From Promethearchaeota archaeon Loki_b31 (GTDB taxonomy: Archaea > Asgardarchaeota > Lokiarchaeia > Sigyniarchaeales > SOKP01), in the NCBI GenBank assembly GCA_005222975.1, contig NJBI01000005.1:62001-126000 (forward strand): 64,000 bases of DNA, read 5' to 3'. Positions 3,577 to 55,163 of the stretch are shown one piece after another. Position numbers and translations under genes: made by a program. The notes beneath the pieces were generated by a model. That model saw only the letters and a program-made list of their open reading frames with translations. It was not told the origin of the DNA and did no database searches. Numbering within the stretch: position 1 is the first letter of the stretch; every line of letters begins with the position of its first letter.

Positions 3577-4575
3577 CTAATCTTTACTCTCGAGTTGCTT
3601 TTTAAGTTCTTCTTTTTCTCCTTCTAATTTCTCAATTTGTCTGTCTTTCTTTTTCATTTTTAATTCTTGGATGGTAATGCCTTGTAAACTGAGTAATTTT
3701 TTAATTAGTATATATGAAGCGAAAGAAATCCCAAACAGGTAAAAGAGATTTATCGTCCAGATGAATGGTGCAATCGAAGTATAAAATGGTAAATTTATAA
3801 ATGGTGCTATTAGTGCAAAGATTCCTATTATCGCAATTGCAATCATAAGTACATATCTTTCATATTCTTTACGTTCAGATCTAAAAAAGACATATAATCT
3901 TAACCAGTAAAATATACACAAAAAAGCTAATGGGGTAAAGATTAAAGAGCCAATAGCTATCACCAATAAAAAATTTATTGCGAACTTGATTCTCCATGAT
4001 TCAAGTAAATCCTTTACAGTTAGCTGATCTTGTTTTTGAACCTTTGCATAATCACCCTTAAGAGTGAAAAACTTTTTCTTAACTTTTCTTGCGGCCCCCT
4101 TTGCTCCATTTTTGAATGTCGAGAATTTACTTAATTCTATTCCTTTATAGAATTTATCTTTCATCAATGGAAAAAGATAAAGCGTTAGAAGCAGAGATAG
4201 GATTCCGTAGAAGTACATTAAAATATCAATTACTAACCAAAACCCTCCTGGAGAGAATAGAGTATTTCGAAAATAACTTGAAATAATCAAGTAAATTGCA
4301 TAACCAATAAAAACAAACGGAACGACAATTTGTATAGTAATTACAATATTAGTTCCTCTTTTATCCAATTTTTCACTAGCTCCATCTAAAAGAATTAAAA
4401 ATCCATTCGCAATACTAAGAATCAATCCAAACCCTGATAGAAATTTAACAGCATAGAAGAATATAATTGCTGTTAGATTTAGGGTAATATTCCCAAAAAT
4501 CATTAAAATCAACATTAAAACGAAAGATATCGATAACCCTAAAATAAAAAAAATTCTTAAATTTTTTTCTTTCAT
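3577..4575 (-). CDS. Multi-pass membrane protein with C-terminal coiled coil, unknown function
   Basis: A 332-residue integral membrane protein, not recognised. Roughly seven hydrophobic spans are visible: about 9-28, 31-60 (possibly two), 80-102, 110-135, 195-225, 236-252 and 256-292. A basic cytoplasmic-looking loop lies at about 140-190. The last ~35 residues are highly charged (KMKKKDRQIEKLEGEKEELK) and should form a short coiled coil. It is the first gene of a two-gene unit with the LCM-like methyltransferase. The coiled coil could anchor a partner at the membrane, but nothing in the sequence names one. Confidence 0.6.
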   Translation of the reverse strand: MKEKNLRIFFILGLSISFVLMLILMIFGNITLNLTAIIFFYAVKFLSGFGLILSIANGFLILLDGASEKLDKRGTNIVITIQIVVPFVFIGYAIYLIISSYFRNTLFSPGGFWLVIDILMYFYGILSLLLTLYLFPLMKDKFYKGIELSKFSTFKNGAKGAARKVKKKFFTLKGDYAKVQKQDQLTVKDLLESWRIKFAINFLLVIAIGSLIFTPLAFLCIFYWLRLYVFFRSERKEYERYVLMIAIAIIGIFALIAPFINLPFYTSIAPFIWTINLFYLFGISFASYILIKKLLSLQGITIQELKMKKKDRQIEKLEGEKEELKKQLESKD

Positions 4576-7505: not shown

Positions 7506-7641
7506 TTTTTTAATTTTCTAATATTTTCCTTTTTATCTTCTTAATGGTATTATAGTTTACCTATAAAATTATTGTTTCTCTATATAATAGATAAAAAGAT
7601 AATATGAGAAAATAACAATAATGAAAGAAAATGTTAAAACA

Positions 7642-9000
7642 TTATTCTAAATCGGTTCGACCTATTGCTCTAAATGGCAAAGCGCTATTAAACTCTTCGT
7701 AATCGAAAAGTCTTCTTCCATCTACAAGGTTCGGAGTTTTCATTTGCTTCTTGAAATCGTCTGGCATAAGTTTTTTAAACTCGTCCCACTCCGTAATTAT
7801 TATTGCACACTCAGAATTTTTTAAAGCTTCTTCAATTGACTCGGCATATTTTATTTTATCTCCCATTTCCATTTCAGCATTTTTATTTGCTTTAGGATCA
7901 TATCCGATGATATCAGTTATACCTCTTTTTCTTAATTCATTAACAACCCTAATACTAGCAGCTTCCCGCATATCGTCCGTACCTGGCTTGAAAGCAAGAC
8001 CTAATAAGGCTACTTTTTTACCAGCTAATTTTCCTGCCAATTGTTCAGCCATATCAACGATGTGGATTGCTTGATCGTCGTTAATGCCTAAAACTGCTTC
8101 CAATAATCTTGAAGTATATCCTTTTGATTTAGACCACGCTTTTATTGCGTTCACATCTTTATGAAAACAAGAACCTCCAAAACCCACTCCAGCATTTAAA
8201 AATCGAGAATTTAATCTGTAATCGAGCCCTACTCCTTTCATAACTTGGGCTATATCTACATTTGGTACTAACTCAGCAAAATTCGCGAATTCATTAGCAT
8301 AGCTGATTTTAGTAGATAAAAGGCAGTTGTTTCCGTATTTAACTAATTCAGCGCTTTCTAGATTTATTCTTAATATAGGGCAATTTTGTAAGTGGTCACC
8401 ATAGAAATATTCGTAAAACTCTTGAAGCATGGCGCCACTCTTCTTGTCAATCTCACCTATTACGATCCTATCTGGGCGAAGCGTATCTTCAATCGAACGA
8501 CCCTCCGCTAAAAATTCGGGTTGCATGCATAAGCCAAAATCTTTTCCTGGAACCTTTCCAGATACTTCAGTAATTATTTTTCCTACCAGATTCCTCGTAG
8601 TACCGGGAACTACGGTAGATCTTACAACAACTAAATGATATTTATCCTTTTGCTTTAGAGCCTCTCCTATTTCCCTAGCTGTACTCTCAATATAGCCTAA
8701 GTCTATGCTTTTATCTTCTCGCATGGGAGTACCTTGAGTAATCATAGAAATATCCGTTTCGAGTACCGCTTTTACGGGATTCAGCAAGCACTGTAATAGT
8801 TCTGGTTTATTAGCTTTAATATCGTCCATCATTTCTTGTAAATCCGCTTCGTAAAATGGTGCCTTTCCATCATTAATCATTTTAGCCTTCTTTTCATTAT
8901 GAGTGGATGCTAAGACTTGTATGTCTTTCCCAGCGAAACATGCAGCACTACATAAACCGATAAATCCAGTCCCTAAAATCGAAACGCTATACTTATACAT
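7642..9000 (-). CDS. UDP-glucose/GDP-mannose 6-dehydrogenase family protein
   Basis: A 452-residue nucleotide-sugar dehydrogenase that oxidises a UDP- or GDP-hexose to the uronic acid with two NAD+. The N-terminal Rossmann motif is SILGTGFIGLCSAACFAG. The catalytic cysteine lies in GVGFGGSCFHKDVNAI, and the C-terminal UDP-binding domain shows VALLGLAFKPGTDDMREA, a highly conserved segment. The length is normal for the family. It is transcribed alone and divergently from the aldolase/Fae gene pair. It probably provides uronic acids for surface glycans or protein glycosylation. The exact sugar (UDP-Glc, UDP-GlcNAc or GDP-Man) is not resolvable by eye. Confidence 0.9.
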   Translation of the reverse strand: MYKYSVSILGTGFIGLCSAACFAGKDIQVLASTHNEKKAKMINDGKAPFYEADLQEMMDDIKANKPELLQCLLNPVKAVLETDISMITQGTPMREDKSIDLGYIESTAREIGEALKQKDKYHLVVVRSTVVPGTTRNLVGKIITEVSGKVPGKDFGLCMQPEFLAEGRSIEDTLRPDRIVIGEIDKKSGAMLQEFYEYFYGDHLQNCPILRINLESAELVKYGNNCLLSTKISYANEFANFAELVPNVDIAQVMKGVGLDYRLNSRFLNAGVGFGGSCFHKDVNAIKAWSKSKGYTSRLLEAVLGINDDQAIHIVDMAEQLAGKLAGKKVALLGLAFKPGTDDMREAASIRVVNELRKRGITDIIGYDPKANKNAEMEMGDKIKYAESIEEALKNSECAIIITEWDEFKKLMPDDFKKQMKTPNLVDGRRLFDYEEFNSALPFRAIGRTDLE

Positions 9001-9209
9001 TTTCGTTACTCTTATTAAATTAAATTCTTTTAATTATCAATTTTGGATATTGTTAAAACTTTTTGCAATTCTACAAATAAATTTATAATATAATGAAATG
9101 TATTAAATTTATGATCTCTTCCAATGAAAGTTGGAAGTATGGGAATTCTTTGGGTAGAATTCAAAATTCATATATAAAATATTAACAAAAAAATAAGGTA
9201 AATGATAAA

Positions 9210-10496
9210 ATGAACGATTTGAGAAAAAAATTGAAAATTCCAGACGACGCATTAAAAGTAATAAACGATTTCTTATTGGACGAAAAAAATCCACTGATAA
9301 ACGATCTTTTAGATATAGTAGATAAATATGGCGGAATAGAGGAGATTAATAGAAAGGCAGAAGAAGCCAGTAAATTAGAAAACTTACTCGAAAAATTAAA
9401 AAAGAAAAAGCCAGAATATGTTAAGGATATTGAGTGGTTGATTTCTCAACGCGGCAATAATTCTTTTATTAGCATAGTAGATTATAGAAAAAAGATTTTA
9501 GGCGATAAAGCGTCTGAAATGACTTTCGACGAAGACTTTGCTATAACATTAGAACTTTCTGCGTGTCAATACTTCCCTTTCTTGATGGATATGGTAAGAG
9601 ACGCCGTTAAAAATCAAAAAATAGTACCTGGTAGAATCATTCGCGTAAGATACATGAAAGAACAGGAAGAAGACGGGGATTTACTAGCTATGGCAGCGGC
9701 AATGCAAATTATTGGTTCGACTTGGGTCGAAACTCTTGACACAAAGGGAACTGCCCCTGGTCCAGATGGTATGCCTGTAAATGTACATCTTGGTGGTCCC
9801 GAAACTATTACTGGCTATTTTGGAGGTGTTGGACAACCAAACAATTTTGCGTTAAAATGGGTTGATGAATATCTTTATTATTATACTAACTACGGCATTA
9901 AACAGGTTCTTAATGTGAATCCAGGCACTGTTTTATTAGGTTATTTTATCCATAAACTTGGTATCAACAACGAATTTAAAATTAGTGTATACATGGGTAA
10001 TGATAACCCGTATTCTTGTCTTTGGACATTATTGACCGCTAAATTGTTTGCACGGGAGGATGGAACTAGTCCCTTGATTGGCTTTAACCTTGCCAATTCA
10101 GTTAATAATGAAACTATTGAAGTAACTGCCTATATTAGAAAAGAATTTGGGTTTGAAGATGTAGTACGAATAGAACACCATATAACTGAAACATGGAAAA
10201 GTATTGTAAGGCAGCCTTATGATCGTCGAGACGAATTAATGGAATTAGCTAAGAAAGTGAAGAATGTAAGTGCGAAACATGAGGGAGCAAATGTTGATGT
10301 TGACGAAAAACGGGATCATCCTACAGATATCCTTGAATATTTCATGACTAAGGAGGATATTGAAGAAGCGGGAATATGGGAAGCATTACGCATAAACCTT
10401 CTCGACCGATACGAAGCTATTAATACTACAGCTGAAGCTCTAACCAAAAAGGGACTAACATTTATAGCTGCTAAGAATTTACATCATCGGGAATAA
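9210..10496 (+). CDS. Unrecognised 428-residue protein in a two-gene unit with aldolase-Fae fusion
   Basis: I do not recognise the family. The N-terminal ~100 residues are charged and helical (KAEEASKLENLLEKLKKKK). The remainder looks like an alpha/beta catalytic body with well-formed conserved-looking stretches: PGRIIRVRYMKEQEEDGD, LDTKGTAPGPDGMPVNVHLG, FGGVGQPNNFALKWVDEY, ISVYMGNDNPYSCLWTLL, RIEHHITETWKSIVRQPYD. It has two cysteines and no membrane segment or signal peptide. Alternating strand/helix segments would suit a TIM-barrel enzyme, but this is inference. AAGGT at 9196-9200 serves the ATG at 9210. The next gene starts 19 bases downstream, so the two are almost certainly co-expressed; the protein probably makes or uses the aldolase substrate. 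Confidence 0.6.
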   Translation: MNDLRKKLKIPDDALKVINDFLLDEKNPLINDLLDIVDKYGGIEEINRKAEEASKLENLLEKLKKKKPEYVKDIEWLISQRGNNSFISIVDYRKKILGDKASEMTFDEDFAITLELSACQYFPFLMDMVRDAVKNQKIVPGRIIRVRYMKEQEEDGDLLAMAAAMQIIGSTWVETLDTKGTAPGPDGMPVNVHLGGPETITGYFGGVGQPNNFALKWVDEYLYYYTNYGIKQVLNVNPGTVLLGYFIHKLGINNEFKISVYMGNDNPYSCLWTLLTAKLFAREDGTSPLIGFNLANSVNNETIEVTAYIRKEFGFEDVVRIEHHITETWKSIVRQPYDRRDELMELAKKVKNVSAKHEGANVDVDEKRDHPTDILEYFMTKEDIEEAGIWEALRINLLDRYEAINTTAEALTKKGLTFIAAKNLHHRE

Positions 10497-10515
10497 TAAA
10501 TAGAGGTTAATTTAA

Positions 10516-12006
10516 ATGGGAAAATTTGATTTTAGACCAACAGGAGTTATGCCAGCATTAGTAACTCCTTTTAATAAAGAAGACGAATCAATTAACGAAG
10601 AAAACCTTAGAAATTTAGTAAACCATCTTATAGATCAAGGAGTTACGGGACTTGTTCCCGTAGGGACGACTGGAGAGTTCGTTAACATGACTTTTGAAGA
10701 ACGCTTGAGAGTCATCGAAATAGTCGTCGACGAGACGAATGGTAGGGTTCCTGTAATTGCTGGAACTGGAGAAACGGGAACAAATTTGGTAATCGATGCC
10801 ACTAAAGCTGCAACGGACATCGGTGCAGATGCGGCTATAATTGTAACGCCTTATTATCTCAAACCTAAGGCAAAAGGGTTGTACGACCATTATTTTACGA
10901 TAGCAGAAAAAACCGATATACCCTTGGTGTTGTATAATATTCCCGTCTGTACGGGGGTAGAACTGCCTTGGACTGTTGTAGAAGATCTAGTTGATATAGA
11001 TAATTTCGTCGCGATAAAGGATTCTAGCGGTGACTACAAATATTTCTCTGCGTTATTAGAGAAAGTGAGCGATAAAATCTCCGTTCTAATAGGGTGGGAC
11101 GAAAATGTATTGGGTGCTTTAGCTGGTGGCGCTGCGGGTTGTATACTTGGTTCTGCTAATGTTATTCCTAAGGTATGGCTCGAACTTTACGACCATGTAA
11201 AAAATAATCGCTTAATTGAAGCACAAACTCTACAAAAGAAAGTGCAAAAGCTAGCTCGAATGTTAATCAATTCTGGAGCTCTAGGCGCCAAAGAGTGTTT
11301 GAATTTGATGGGCATTCCAGTAGGCACAACAAGACGCCCGATCATTTTAGGAGACGCTCTTTCCTACGAACTCCAAGACGAATTTAGAGTTGAACTTGAA
11401 AAGTTAGGATATATCGAAAAGAAAGAAATTAAGTTCGAGATTGATGATAAAGAACTAACGAGTCGTTTTTACGCAGTGGGTGTTACACCTGACAAAATTT
11501 CTGATTTCAGCTTAAAAGTCGGAGAATCGCTTGTTGGCAGTAGAGCGGAGTTAGCACATATTGATCTTTTAATAGGAAATAAAAAGGGCCCCGTAGGTGA
11601 CGCTTACGCTCGTGCTTTAACTCATCCAGCTAAAGGGCGTGAAGGGTTACAGGTAATTCTCGAACCAAACATGCAAGTCAAACCTGCGACTATTATGATC
11701 CCTACAGTTAAAATCACTTCGCTTCGCCACGCAAGTTTGACTTATGGACCTGCTCAAGCAGCAGTAGCAAAAGCGGTAATGAAATGCGTAGAGGATGGCA
11801 TTCTTCCTAAAGAAGCAGCAGAGGATATATTAATAATTGTAAATGTATTTGTACATCCTAGCGCTAGCGCTCGAAAACGGGTATTTATTAATAACTATAA
11901 AGCTACAAGAAACGCCATTCGAAAGGCAATGGAAGGGTTACCAACGGTAGATGACGCTATTCAAAACGCTGAAAATGCACGTCATCCCTTCAGGAACGAT
12001 CCGTAA
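10516..12006 (+). CDS. Fusion: DapA/NAL-family pyruvate-type aldolase + formaldehyde-activating enzyme (Fae)
   Basis: A 496-residue two-domain enzyme. Residues 1-~300 are a DapA/N-acetylneuraminate-lyase-family Schiff-base aldolase: GTTGEF at 50-55, IAGTGETGT, TPYYLKPKAKGLY, catalytic Tyr140 (LYNIPVCTG) and Schiff-base Lys168 (AIKDSSGD). The arginine that DHDPS uses after Tyr (YNVPSRTG) is replaced (VCTG), so lysine biosynthesis is unlikely. Residues ~318-487 are a complete Fae domain: KVGESLVGSRAELAHIDLLI with the proposed catalytic His348, GNKKGPVGDAYARAL, YGPAQAAVAKAV, VFVHPSASARKR. Fae condenses formaldehyde with tetrahydromethanopterin to methylene-H4MPT. The fusion suggests an aldolase that releases or consumes formaldehyde next to Fae. 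GAGGT precedes the ATG. Confidence 0.88.
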   Translation: MGKFDFRPTGVMPALVTPFNKEDESINEENLRNLVNHLIDQGVTGLVPVGTTGEFVNMTFEERLRVIEIVVDETNGRVPVIAGTGETGTNLVIDATKAATDIGADAAIIVTPYYLKPKAKGLYDHYFTIAEKTDIPLVLYNIPVCTGVELPWTVVEDLVDIDNFVAIKDSSGDYKYFSALLEKVSDKISVLIGWDENVLGALAGGAAGCILGSANVIPKVWLELYDHVKNNRLIEAQTLQKKVQKLARMLINSGALGAKECLNLMGIPVGTTRRPIILGDALSYELQDEFRVELEKLGYIEKKEIKFEIDDKELTSRFYAVGVTPDKISDFSLKVGESLVGSRAELAHIDLLIGNKKGPVGDAYARALTHPAKGREGLQVILEPNMQVKPATIMIPTVKITSLRHASLTYGPAQAAVAKAVMKCVEDGILPKEAAEDILIIVNVFVHPSASARKRVFINNYKATRNAIRKAMEGLPTVDDAIQNAENARHPFRNDP

Positions 12007-17725: not shown

Positions 17726-19036
17726 TTAAACGCTTAAAATTTCCTTAATGAGTTCAATTATTCTTTCTTTATCAAAAATAGCAGTATTCCCAATTTCTTT
17801 AAAATTTAAAATTTGATCATGGTAATGTTCTTCAAAATGATTTAAAAAATATGCTAACCTCTCTTTTAAACTCTGACTGGCAGGTCTTGAGAGAAATAGT
17901 GCTAATTTAATGTGTTCTCCATAGACAGCATGAATATAGAAACCTTTGTAATTAATTTCATTCATTGATGTAGTTCCGCCTATTTCTGAAACAAATGAAT
18001 CCATTGCTGATAAGAATCCAGAAACTAATTCTTTATCCATTGGAATTTCCTCGCTGGAATGCGCTATCATAGCTAAACCAGAAGTCTTTTCAATAATCAG
18101 TAGTGTTCTAAACAAGTCTTTATATTTTGGCTTTGCGCTTACAGCGTGTTCTTCCATAATTAATTTTTCCTTTGGAAAAAGCTCAAACATTACAAAATAT
18201 TTCGGATTGTACGACTCGTTTTCTTTGAAATAATACTCAGAAATTTTAGCTAACTGTGAAGGTGTTCTTATTGGTTCGTGAGGTAATTTCTTGATATATT
18301 CGTCTCGAATTGAGGAATCATGATTTTTTGATTTTTTACCTTTAATAATTCCTAAGATTTTTTGGTGAATTGGATCAATTACATACATCCACACATTCAA
18401 ATTTATCATATCACTCTTGATTCTTTCATAACCGATATTGCAAACTCCTCGAGGCGTTGTCACAAAAACCGACCATATAGCTACTTTTGACGCTTCGTTA
18501 ATTAGGTAAAAAGTTTCTTTATAGTTCTCTTCTGTCATTTCTGCTCCTGTTCTTACAAATACGGCCTCAGTTCTCAGAAAAGGCTTTTTCTTAATTAAGT
18601 ATAAATCTAACGAAAAATCTTTGATATCAGCCGTATTGAATACAGAAATTCCATAGTCAGCACAGTAATCAGCAAACGCATCGATAAGTTCTTGTTTAGA
18701 TATGAAATCAAACCTTGTTAAATAATCGCTTAATTTTTCATCGGTAATTATAAAATTTCCAATGTATTCAATGGGACTCTTAAATTGTTTTTTAAGCGTT
18801 GGACTTTTTTGATATTGTTTATAAAAATGAATACTAATGTGATCAAGTATTTCGAGTTTTGATAAATTTTGTTCTTCTGGAAGTGGAATGTTGTGTCTGT
18901 TCATAAATCCGTAAATTTCTTTAAACCGACTTCTAACAATAAGACAATTTAGACATATAATTCCCCTCTTACCTTCGCTATCACTTCTTATAATCTTTAA
19001 AAATTCTTCTGCTTCAGTTAATTTTTCAGAACTCAT
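17726..19036 (-). CDS. 436-residue protein with C-terminal longin-like domain, unknown function
   Basis: Not recognised as a whole. The N-terminal ~150 residues contain a CLNCLIVRSRFKEIYGF segment and helical stretches. The middle (~150-270) looks alpha/beta. The last ~130 residues (LLIIEKTSGLAMIAHSSEEI, LVSGFLSAMDSFVSEIGG, YIHAVYGEHIKLALFLSRPA, LAYFLNHFEEHYHDQIL) have the strand/helix order and hydrophobic pattern of the longin/roadblock-like regulators that accompany small GTPases in Asgard archaea. This domain call is inference from pattern only. If right, the protein is a candidate GTPase adaptor or sensor; a separate GTPase gene lies at 35819-36370. It stands alone on the minus strand. 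Confidence 0.5.
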   Translation of the reverse strand: MSSEKLTEAEEFLKIIRSDSEGKRGIICLNCLIVRSRFKEIYGFMNRHNIPLPEEQNLSKLEILDHISIHFYKQYQKSPTLKKQFKSPIEYIGNFIITDEKLSDYLTRFDFISKQELIDAFADYCADYGISVFNTADIKDFSLDLYLIKKKPFLRTEAVFVRTGAEMTEENYKETFYLINEASKVAIWSVFVTTPRGVCNIGYERIKSDMINLNVWMYVIDPIHQKILGIIKGKKSKNHDSSIRDEYIKKLPHEPIRTPSQLAKISEYYFKENESYNPKYFVMFELFPKEKLIMEEHAVSAKPKYKDLFRTLLIIEKTSGLAMIAHSSEEIPMDKELVSGFLSAMDSFVSEIGGTTSMNEINYKGFYIHAVYGEHIKLALFLSRPASQSLKERLAYFLNHFEEHYHDQILNFKEIGNTAIFDKERIIELIKEILSV

Positions 19037-37601: not shown

Positions 37602-38861
37602 TTGAATATCAATGGAAAACAATTTGAAGAAGGTTATATTTCAAAAATAATTGAGCTATTAAACCATAATATTATAGGTAAGACCTCTGCTAGAGCAGTT
37701 TCTTTACATATGGGTCTGAATCGTAATTATCTCTCTGATAAACAACTAAGAGAAGGAAAATATGAGCAATATAATAAATTTTTTGCTTTAGCTACTAATT
37801 TTCTTTTACTTAATCGGTTTGATTTAAATTTTAGGTCTGATACCCATTATAAGAAGTTCATAGCTGAAACTATAGAAATTATTTTTCAGGAAATGGTCAG
37901 AAAAGGTATCTACTCTGAAGATGAGGTTTTAACTATTCAAAAGACACAATTTAAAGCTTTAATATATACACTTTATGCAATTACTAAAGCTAAGACAAAC
38001 AAATATTCACAGATTAGACTTGATGAATTAAAATCTGGGAAAACAAAAAAGTTCTTATACACATGGAATAAGCTTAGTTATGACATCGGGGGAGTAGAGA
38101 CACTTTCTCAAACTCTTAAACATGAGACGGTTGTCGCACCTGAAAAAATTGCTCTAATCAAATCAATCTTAGAGAATTCTACACCATTTGCTTTTGAAGA
38201 ATGCACGCATGCTATGGATCTAATCGAAGAGATCCCAAGATTAAGATATAGCGATCGCGCTTCATATATAGGGTCAGTATCTCACTCAGTTTTGGAAAAT
38301 TTCTTCAGAGAAATGTGGTTAAATATAAATATTCTCTCTCGACATGAAGTTGAATCTAATAAACCTAGAAGTAATCATAGAATAGATAGTTTATTAGAGA
38401 TTAAAACGCAAATACAGTTAAAAGACTTATTAGAAATTTCCTTAAACATTGATCTGGGAAATTATGAGAAAATGTTCATTGATTATACTATACCATCATT
38501 AATCTCTTTAAAACAATTAGGAGGTGTCCTAAGCAAATTAAGTCCAGATAAGCATTATCTTGCACATGATCGCTTACTGATTATTGTTTTCTATGGATAT
38601 TATAATAATAAAGTTTTCGAAGCCCTTCAAGATCTACTTAATGATTTAAATATTCCTTTTAAAAGTAATATTCGATTTATGGATCTCATTGATTTTGCTA
38701 AATTGTTTAATTTTAATGCAGAGAATATTCAGATGTTAGAGCATATCAATCAGATAATTCAAAAAGCCTTTTTGGGGAACGATGAAGCGTTAAATACTCT
38801 AGAAGAACTGTCTAATTCTGCTTTATATAAGCTAAGAAAAGCTGATAAAAGAAAGAGTTGA
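37602..38861 (+). CDS. Unrecognised 419-residue protein
   Basis: I do not recognise a family. The N-terminal part has an HTH-like stretch (IGKTSARAVSLHMGLNRNYL, SDKQLREGK), and the rest is mostly helical with abundant Leu, Ile, Asn and Lys. Stretches such as RASYIGSVSHSVLENFFREM and PDKHYLAHDRLLIIVFYGYY look ordered. There are no membrane spans and few cysteines. It stands alone, started at TTG 37602 without a strong ribosome-binding site. The composition resembles lineage-specific accessory genes; it could be a regulator or a mobile-element relic, but nothing in the sequence decides this. Confidence 0.5.
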   Translation: MNINGKQFEEGYISKIIELLNHNIIGKTSARAVSLHMGLNRNYLSDKQLREGKYEQYNKFFALATNFLLLNRFDLNFRSDTHYKKFIAETIEIIFQEMVRKGIYSEDEVLTIQKTQFKALIYTLYAITKAKTNKYSQIRLDELKSGKTKKFLYTWNKLSYDIGGVETLSQTLKHETVVAPEKIALIKSILENSTPFAFEECTHAMDLIEEIPRLRYSDRASYIGSVSHSVLENFFREMWLNINILSRHEVESNKPRSNHRIDSLLEIKTQIQLKDLLEISLNIDLGNYEKMFIDYTIPSLISLKQLGGVLSKLSPDKHYLAHDRLLIIVFYGYYNNKVFEALQDLLNDLNIPFKSNIRFMDLIDFAKLFNFNAENIQMLEHINQIIQKAFLGNDEALNTLEELSNSALYKLRKADKRKS

Positions 38862-54290: not shown

Positions 54291-55163
54291 ATGACAAATA
54301 ACGATTTAAGATGGGACATACCTTATCATCGAGCTTTTTTTAAAACCAGTCATAATTCTTTCAACATTTCTGTTCGAAAACAACTCAATCACGGTGTTAG
54401 AGGGCTTGAATATGACATACACGATGACAGGATTCAAGAAGTTGGCGATTTTGAAGTATATCACCTGCCCAAACATGTTGATGTTGCAATTAATGCAGAT
54501 GGAAATCCAGGAGATCTATTGTTATCGAGCTGGCTCACTTTATTGAAGGACTGGTCTGATGACCAGAATAATGAACATGCTCCAATCACGCTTTTTATTG
54601 AATTGAAAGATTGTATTGTTGACGCGAATAATAATCCGAGCGAATTATATGGAATTAAAAGGTTAAATAAGGTGATTCTTGATACTTTATCACCTAAGTA
54701 CTTATATTCCCATAGTGATTTTAGGAAAAACGAATACGAATGGCCAACAGTAGGAGAATTAAAAGGACTTGTAATTATTGTATTAACCAGTTATTGGGGC
54801 GGTTACTGGGCTTCCAGTGAAGGTGGGTTCGAGTCTCGTTTACAATATTTAAACAATTGTTTGAAGGGTGAGGATGACATTTGCTTCGTATCTTGGATCG
54901 AAGAAGATCGTGGAAAACAGAAACTGTTTATGAAAGAAAAAGCAACTTTTTGGAAATGCAGCATAGAATATAGCACCAAACATTATGAAGAGAATGTGCA
55001 ATTACAAAGATCCACAAGAGTCGATTTCGATAAAATACATTGGGGTCGCCATGTGAAAACTTATTATGAGAAAAATTATGAAAGTGGATTTAGAGCCAAC
55101 TTTTTTGCTACAGATTCATGGGCAGAGGAAAAATATGATAAAGCTTTTCCATGGTCAATTTAA
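54291..55163 (+). CDS. PI-PLC-like phosphodiesterase
   Basis: A 290-residue protein with the PI-PLC-like TIM-barrel signature. The first catalytic His lies in FKTSHNSFN, then HGVRGLEYDIHDDRI (metal and substrate residues), the second His lies in FEVYHLPKH, and ITLFIELKD and GLVIIVLTS are barrel strands. There is no signal peptide, so it appears cytoplasmic. Such enzymes cleave phosphodiester bonds in phospholipids or glycerophosphodiesters; the substrate is unknown. It lies on the opposite strand between hypF and hypD and ends 2 bases from the hypD stop, so it looks inserted into the maturation cluster. Confidence 0.7.
   Translation: MTNNDLRWDIPYHRAFFKTSHNSFNISVRKQLNHGVRGLEYDIHDDRIQEVGDFEVYHLPKHVDVAINADGNPGDLLLSSWLTLLKDWSDDQNNEHAPITLFIELKDCIVDANNNPSELYGIKRLNKVILDTLSPKYLYSHSDFRKNEYEWPTVGELKGLVIIVLTSYWGGYWASSEGGFESRLQYLNNCLKGEDDICFVSWIEEDRGKQKLFMKEKATFWKCSIEYSTKHYEENVQLQRSTRVDFDKIHWGRHVKTYYEKNYESGFRANFFATDSWAEEKYDKAFPWSI

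Follow-up and report, generated by a model that had tools for sequence, protein, structure and literature searches.

A DapA-type aldolase fused to a formaldehyde-activating enzyme in Asgard archaea, and a possible natural pathway through 4-hydroxy-2-oxobutanoate

The window analyzed in this study, a stretch of 64,000 nucleotides from Promethearchaeota archaeon Loki_b31, contains two adjacent open reading frames on the forward strand, exactly where the original prediction had placed them. The first, referred to here as gene 1 (9210–10496, +), encodes a 428-residue protein of an undescribed family and the second (10516–12006, +) a protein of 496 residues. The gap between them is 19 bp (10497–10515, +), and this spacing on the same strand is consistent with a single transcript. 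Elsewhere in the window, 54291–55163 (+) matches PF16670 (31.7 bits, cut-off 29.9), a eukaryote-type Ca2+-dependent phosphoinositide phospholipase C family, here in an Asgard genome, and several long open reading frames (17726–19036, −; 37602–38861, +; 1756–2736, +; 3577–4575, −) match no Pfam family.

Open reading frame analysis, Pfam, NCBIfam and genome comparison agree that the second gene encodes, in one frame, a DapA-superfamily aldolase and a complete formaldehyde-activating enzyme (Fae) domain, the fusion that had been predicted. The aldolase domain (residues 8–277; 10537–11346, +) matches the dihydrodipicolinate synthase (DHDPS) profile PF00701 with an E-value of 3.2e-74 (249.7 bits, cut-off 22.1), and its closest solved structures in the PDB comparison are dihydrodipicolinate synthases. 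The Fae domain (residues 335–492; 11518–11991, +) matches PF08714 (E 6.9e-58) and reaches 192 bits with the NCBIfam profile TIGR03126, for which the curated cut-off is 118; no Hps domain was found in the fusion with Pfam and NCBIfam profiles. The protein also exceeds the cut-off of TIGR00674 (dapA, NCBIfam; 233 vs 206 bits), thus automatic annotation would name it dihydrodipicolinate synthase, and its DapA domain matches several further aldolase models in NCBIfam.

Alignments recovered each of the active-site residues named beforehand. Tyr140 (codon 10933–10935, +), which in the alignment to 3pud is the equivalent of the catalytic Tyr133 of E. coli DHDPS, lies in a YNxP motif that keeps this tyrosine in all fusions aligned. 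The Schiff-base lysine, Lys168 (11017–11019, +; alignment to 3pud and fusion alignment), is kept in all fusions aligned but one, the divergent second copy at a Thorarchaeal locus (L057). His348 (11557–11559, +), the Fae active-site histidine in the motif ELAHIDLL of the fusion alignment, is present in every full-length copy and is gone from the shorter copies with which tandem pairs begin. The arginine typical of DHDPS is missing, as also predicted: YNIPVCTG of the fusion aligns with YNVPGRTG of 3pud, which puts Cys145 (10948–10950, +) at the place of Arg138, and across all fusions aligned this position is C, V, L, M or F and never R.

The same two-domain order, which the original prediction had proposed to look for in other Asgard genomes, is present in about 100 of 228 such genomes at 39–99% identity (a count of 105 takes in partial matches at contig ends). 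Full-length fusions were seen in Asgard families f1, f2, f8, f9, f17, f18, f23, f26 and f28, and six Bathyarchaeota also carry the fusion with 56–58% identity. A chimeric assembly, raised at the outset as a way in which the fusion could prove spurious, is ruled out by this recurrence, and the proposed pathway is not confined to Asgard archaea. Tandem DapA-Fae pairs occur in the Thorarchaeal family f28 and in genome G040, with a shorter copy first and a full copy after it (7608–9038 and 9035–10519 at L052; likewise at L047 and L053–L057). In the first copy the Fae domain is degenerate and lacks the active-site histidine, and such pairs possibly represent a heteromeric arrangement. Neither the DapA-Fae fusion nor gene 1 was found described in the literature searched, where no paper named both Fae and DHDPS, and Fae-Hps was the sole Fae fusion mentioned in the Fae literature searched.

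The gene 1 protein had been thought to belong to no recognizable family, and it indeed has no match in Pfam or NCBIfam at E ≤ 1e-3 and none in the PDB. Alignments of 20 and 30 relatives (62–83% identity) reveal a highly conserved stretch, ETLDTKGT..DG..NVHLGGPETITGYFGGVGQPN, at about residues 174–211, and an EHH motif at residues 322–324. Structure prediction, which had been suggested for this protein, gave two AlphaFold models (pLDDT 79.8 and 86.6, the latter with pTM 0.87) that predict an N-terminal domain made of helices together with a barrel-like alpha/beta domain, with the most conserved loop (about 176–211) not resolved, and Foldseek searches with them returned only generic TIM barrels and no specific family, the best match being a class II fructose-bisphosphate aldolase (E 5e-4, TM 0.32). 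Neither profile nor fold gives gene 1 a name. ThrB is below cut-off in 29 of 29 genomes tested, whether or not they carry gene 1, a result that says nothing for or against gene 1 as the missing homoserine kinase. The family is widespread, with at least 574 matches in a scan of species genome contigs and members in Asgard archaea, Bathyarchaeota, Thermoplasmatota and Chloroflexota; the proposed search for homologues found gene 1 in 126 of 228 Asgard genomes, and it is present in 38 of 390 Thermoplasmatota and 24 of 400 Chloroflexota genomes.

In the f1 and f17 loci that were read, as well as in an f2 genome (G028), gene 1 immediately precedes the fusion. Within the Lokiarchaeal family f1, 39 genomes have both genes and 22 have neither, with 3 and 1 discordant. 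Of the discordant genomes, G005 has only the N-terminal part of gene 1 (residues 1–211), G124 has a piece of the fusion where a contig ends, and G151 and G152 have partial Fae-side matches only; at least those of G005 and G124 are matches truncated at, or close to, the ends of contigs. Outside this pairing, the fusion occurs without gene 1 and with another upstream partner in some lineages (G039, G166, G104, G103 and G040). In lineages that gave no gene 1, a second undescribed family of about 315 aa adjoins the fusion (L043 7087–8025, −; L044 9201–10139, +; L045 5870–6817, −; L046 2226–3194, +; L047 6340–7287, +). It is colinear with gene 1, and the resemblance is weak (hhalign E 0.004, probability 8%), thus homology is not claimed. 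In another genome (G030) a divergent DapA-family protein of 348 aa with 26% identity and no Fae (L036 6778–7824, +) sits 17 bp upstream of gene 1.

The neighbors of gene 1 were surveyed at 129 distinct loci, with families verified using NCBIfam and Pfam. DapA-Fae is nearby in 40 loci; homoserine dehydrogenase (HSD) and/or an aldehyde oxidoreductase or dehydrogenase (AOR/ALDH) and/or an aminotransferase in 51; PanB in 11; threonine synthase and/or an ECF-type transporter in 13; and none of these in 14. The sets are near-exclusive, the sole mixed locus being L114, where DapA-Fae stands with AOR. The neighboring HSDs score 428–436 bits against a cut-off of 373, the AOR and aminotransferase neighbors were identified by Pfam, and in three Thermoplasmatal operons an NAD(P)-aldehyde dehydrogenase stands where AOR is otherwise found. 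An aminotransferase is present in 42 of the 51 loci of the HSD/AOR/aminotransferase type and in no DapA-Fae or PanB locus counted, and in Lokiarchaeia the fusion has no aminotransferase gene next to it. Two Bathyarchaeal loci with identical flanks (clusters 22, 43 and 38) both retain gene 1, accompanied by DapA-Fae in one (L128) and by HSD and AOR in the other (L126), whose genome has no fusion and has a Fae match elsewhere. The PanB neighbors, from Chloroflexota, pass the PanB cut-off and are altered in a consistent manner: all 14 gene-1-linked PanBs (L144 5625–6491; L152 7961–8962; L156 5941–6798; and 11 further Chloroflexota loci) carry I202L and I212L (E. coli numbering) and have S-L-G-S-G in place of G-I-G-A-G. 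Residues I202 and I212 have been mutated in KPHMT to alter 2-oxoacid acceptance (PMC7611260). This PanB subfamily is a candidate bacterial hydroxymethyltransferase of 4-hydroxy-2-oxobutanoate (HOB).

Genome-wide, HSD (PF00742, which detected the enzyme in 14 of 14 control genomes) was found in 101 of 228 Asgard genomes and is anti-correlated with the fusion. Both are present in 20 genomes, the fusion only in 85 and HSD only in 81 (odds ratio 0.12, p 6e-13, a value not corrected for phylogeny and inflated by shared ancestry; inside f1 alone, p 0.04). In f28, HSD was found in two of 44 fusion genomes, with 42 of the 44 being without it. In f1, HSD is also present in 15 of 42 fusion genomes, thus the fusion route is unlikely to be a simple replacement for HSD. 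Among seven f28 fusion genomes tested, threonine synthase is over cut-off in all seven and Asd is missing in five, and in this family threonine synthase lies beside gene 1 in divergent orientation. A 1.36 Mb Bathyarchaeal contig (G233) has gene 1, AOR, DapA-Fae and threonine synthase within 12 kb, the latter 3.4 kb away from the fusion, and no match to HSD or PanB anywhere on the contig. About 17 kb from DapA-Fae on that contig, a further protein (G233:C1 1178904–1180013, −; overlapping L251 and L252) has a Fae domain after an N-terminal stretch resembling a helix-turn-helix region. Of 29 genomes tested, 27 have Mch, the H4MPT cyclohydrolase, among them 20 of 20 with the fusion. The two that lack it, G090 and G053, carry gene 1 together with HSD/AOR but not the fusion.

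HSD connects aspartate semialdehyde with homoserine, and aminotransferases connect homoserine with HOB. DapA-type chemistry relates HOB to pyruvate and formaldehyde, and in PanB-type chemistry the partners joined are a 2-oxoacid and methylene-H4F. From this established enzymology, we infer that the three modules found beside gene 1 meet only at HOB/homoserine. The sequence evidence makes it probable that the fusion interconverts HOB with pyruvate and formaldehyde and that its Fae domain exchanges the formaldehyde with methylene-H4MPT. The DapA domain would bind pyruvate through Lys168, as a Schiff base, and add it to, or cleave it from, formaldehyde, and Fae would trade that formaldehyde with methylene-H4MPT, perhaps by hand-over inside the enzyme. 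With both steps the fusion would be the H4MPT-based equivalent of a PanB-type hydroxymethyltransferase, which works with tetrahydrofolate. Transamination would connect HOB with homoserine, hence threonine, and gene 1 would act at HOB/homoserine as the constant partner of DapA-Fae, of aminotransferase with HSD and AOR/ALDH, or of PanB-like modules. The original prediction of a 4-hydroxy-2-oxoacid formed from, or cleaved to, pyruvate and formaldehyde with a link to H4MPT is thus supported indirectly, through the alternative neighbors of gene 1 and the anti-correlation with HSD. Counting against this reading are the HSD present in 15 of 42 f1 fusion genomes, the missing aminotransferase gene next to the fusion in Lokiarchaeia, the aldehyde dehydrogenases of the three Thermoplasmatal operons, the PanB cut-off that the linked PanBs pass, and the lineages in which the fusion has another partner than gene 1. 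The conversion of pyruvate and formaldehyde to HOB and on to homoserine is established in engineered systems (PMC8879981, PMC7918591, PMC8719824).

The same node can be crossed in both directions, thus our confidence applies to the reaction and not to its direction. Threonine synthase in HSD-poor genomes favors homoserine synthesis from pyruvate and a C1 unit, and the NAD(P)-aldehyde dehydrogenases replacing AOR in the three Thermoplasmatal operons favor oxidation of a homoserine-derived semialdehyde. Homoserine/threonine biosynthesis may be slightly favored in Thorarchaeia and Bathyarchaeota, and catabolic use of the fusion is possible in other lineages. The wider proposal, which we advance tentatively at somewhat below even chances, is a natural HOB pathway in archaea and some Chloroflexota in which a C1 unit on H4MPT (DapA-Fae) or H4F (modified PanB) would be joined to, or released from, pyruvate, with gene 1 as the constant component, yielding homoserine and threonine by a path that bypasses aspartate semialdehyde, or running in reverse for C1 supply. 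Such a pathway would be new; DapA aldolases, Fae and Fae-aldolase fusions are of known kinds.

The alternative that survives best keeps the same fusion reaction and differs in direction and in the role of gene 1. The whole module could be catabolic, with gene 1 forming HOB, for instance through dehydration of a C4 sugar acid; this HOB would then be drained to pyruvate and CH2-H4MPT (DapA-Fae), to pyruvate and CH2-H4F (PanB-like) or to oxaloacetate (aminotransferase, HSD and AOR/ALDH). The substitution of ALDH for AOR suits this reading, and the restriction of aminotransferases among the counted loci to the HSD/AOR/aminotransferase type is what would be expected if the product of gene 1 is a 2-oxoacid, although a class III aminotransferase does come after PanB-gene 1 in L152. 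HSD-poor Thorarchaeia with threonine synthase, however, need a source of homoserine, and we regard a wholly catabolic module as somewhat unlikely. Members of the DapA superfamily differ in function, and the residue at the Arg138 position does not settle which substrate is used; the aldolase could instead be of the sugar-acid type (KDG-like or 4-hydroxy-2-oxoglutarate-like) and release a larger aldehyde, with Fae a separate formaldehyde trap that shares no more than the polypeptide. Fae binds only a C1 unit, the fusion is kept over many families and into Bathyarchaeota, and the alternative modules are C4/homoserine enzymes rather than sugar-acid enzymes, which together make this reading improbable.

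We give slightly less credence still to a ketopantoate synthase, in which the DapA domain would hydroxymethylate 2-oxoisovalerate with formaldehyde from Fae and replace PanB, and gene 1 would be an enzyme of the CoA pathway. The PanB-family neighbors in Chloroflexota and the lack of a PanB match on the Bathyarchaeal contig with DapA-Fae speak for it. Against it, HSD, threonine synthase and aspartate aminotransferase neighbors are foreign to pantoate synthesis, the linked PanBs are altered at I202/I212, the active-site columns of the fusion that were examined look canonical, and pyruvate is the normal substrate of DapA enzymes. An ordinary DHDPS of lysine biosynthesis with Fae fused by accident is very unlikely despite the TIGR00674 score, as no fusion aligned has an Arg138 equivalent, Asd, the supplier of aspartate semialdehyde, is missing from most of the fusion-keeping Thorarchaeal genomes tested (5/7), and the recurrent neighbors surveyed include no lysine genes.

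Fae-Hps (PRK13307), reported in Asgard archaea (PMC7495880, PMC11291895), likewise joins Fae to a formaldehyde-fixing aldolase and links H4MPT to a C-C bond. It differs in that Fae is N-terminal and the aldolase is Hps, acting with ribulose-5-phosphate, whereas DapA-Fae begins with a Schiff-base DapA aldolase and ends with Fae. With the DapA superfamily (DHDPS, NAL, KDG aldolase) the fusion has in common the fold, the Schiff-base lysine, the tyrosine and a Thr-Thr motif; it departs from it in lacking Arg138, in the attached Fae and in having homoserine rather than lysine neighbors. PanB (ketopantoate hydroxymethyltransferase, and PanB-type HOB designs) also relates a 2-oxoacid and a C1 carrier to a 4-hydroxy-2-oxoacid and holds in Chloroflexota the place beside gene 1 that the fusion holds elsewhere, but it is a class II metal enzyme that uses tetrahydrofolate by another mechanism. 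The closest parallel to the HOB pathway proposed here is in the synthetic homoserine/HOB cycles, which connect pyruvate and C1 with HOB and homoserine (PMC8879981, PMC7918591, PMC8719824, PMC11961710). Those were engineered in E. coli from promiscuous enzymes, whereas our proposal involves a dedicated natural fusion using H4MPT.

Canonical metabolism has been described as lacking HOB (PMC8719824), and the HOB cycles known so far are all synthetic designs (PMC11961710). If the proposed HOB pathway is true, it would be a natural counterpart of these synthetic cycles, and a dedicated natural enzyme would offer a template for formaldehyde assimilation. It would also give the so far unannotated gene 1 family a testable role and explain how threonine synthesis may be possible in the many Thorarchaeal genomes without HSD or Asd.
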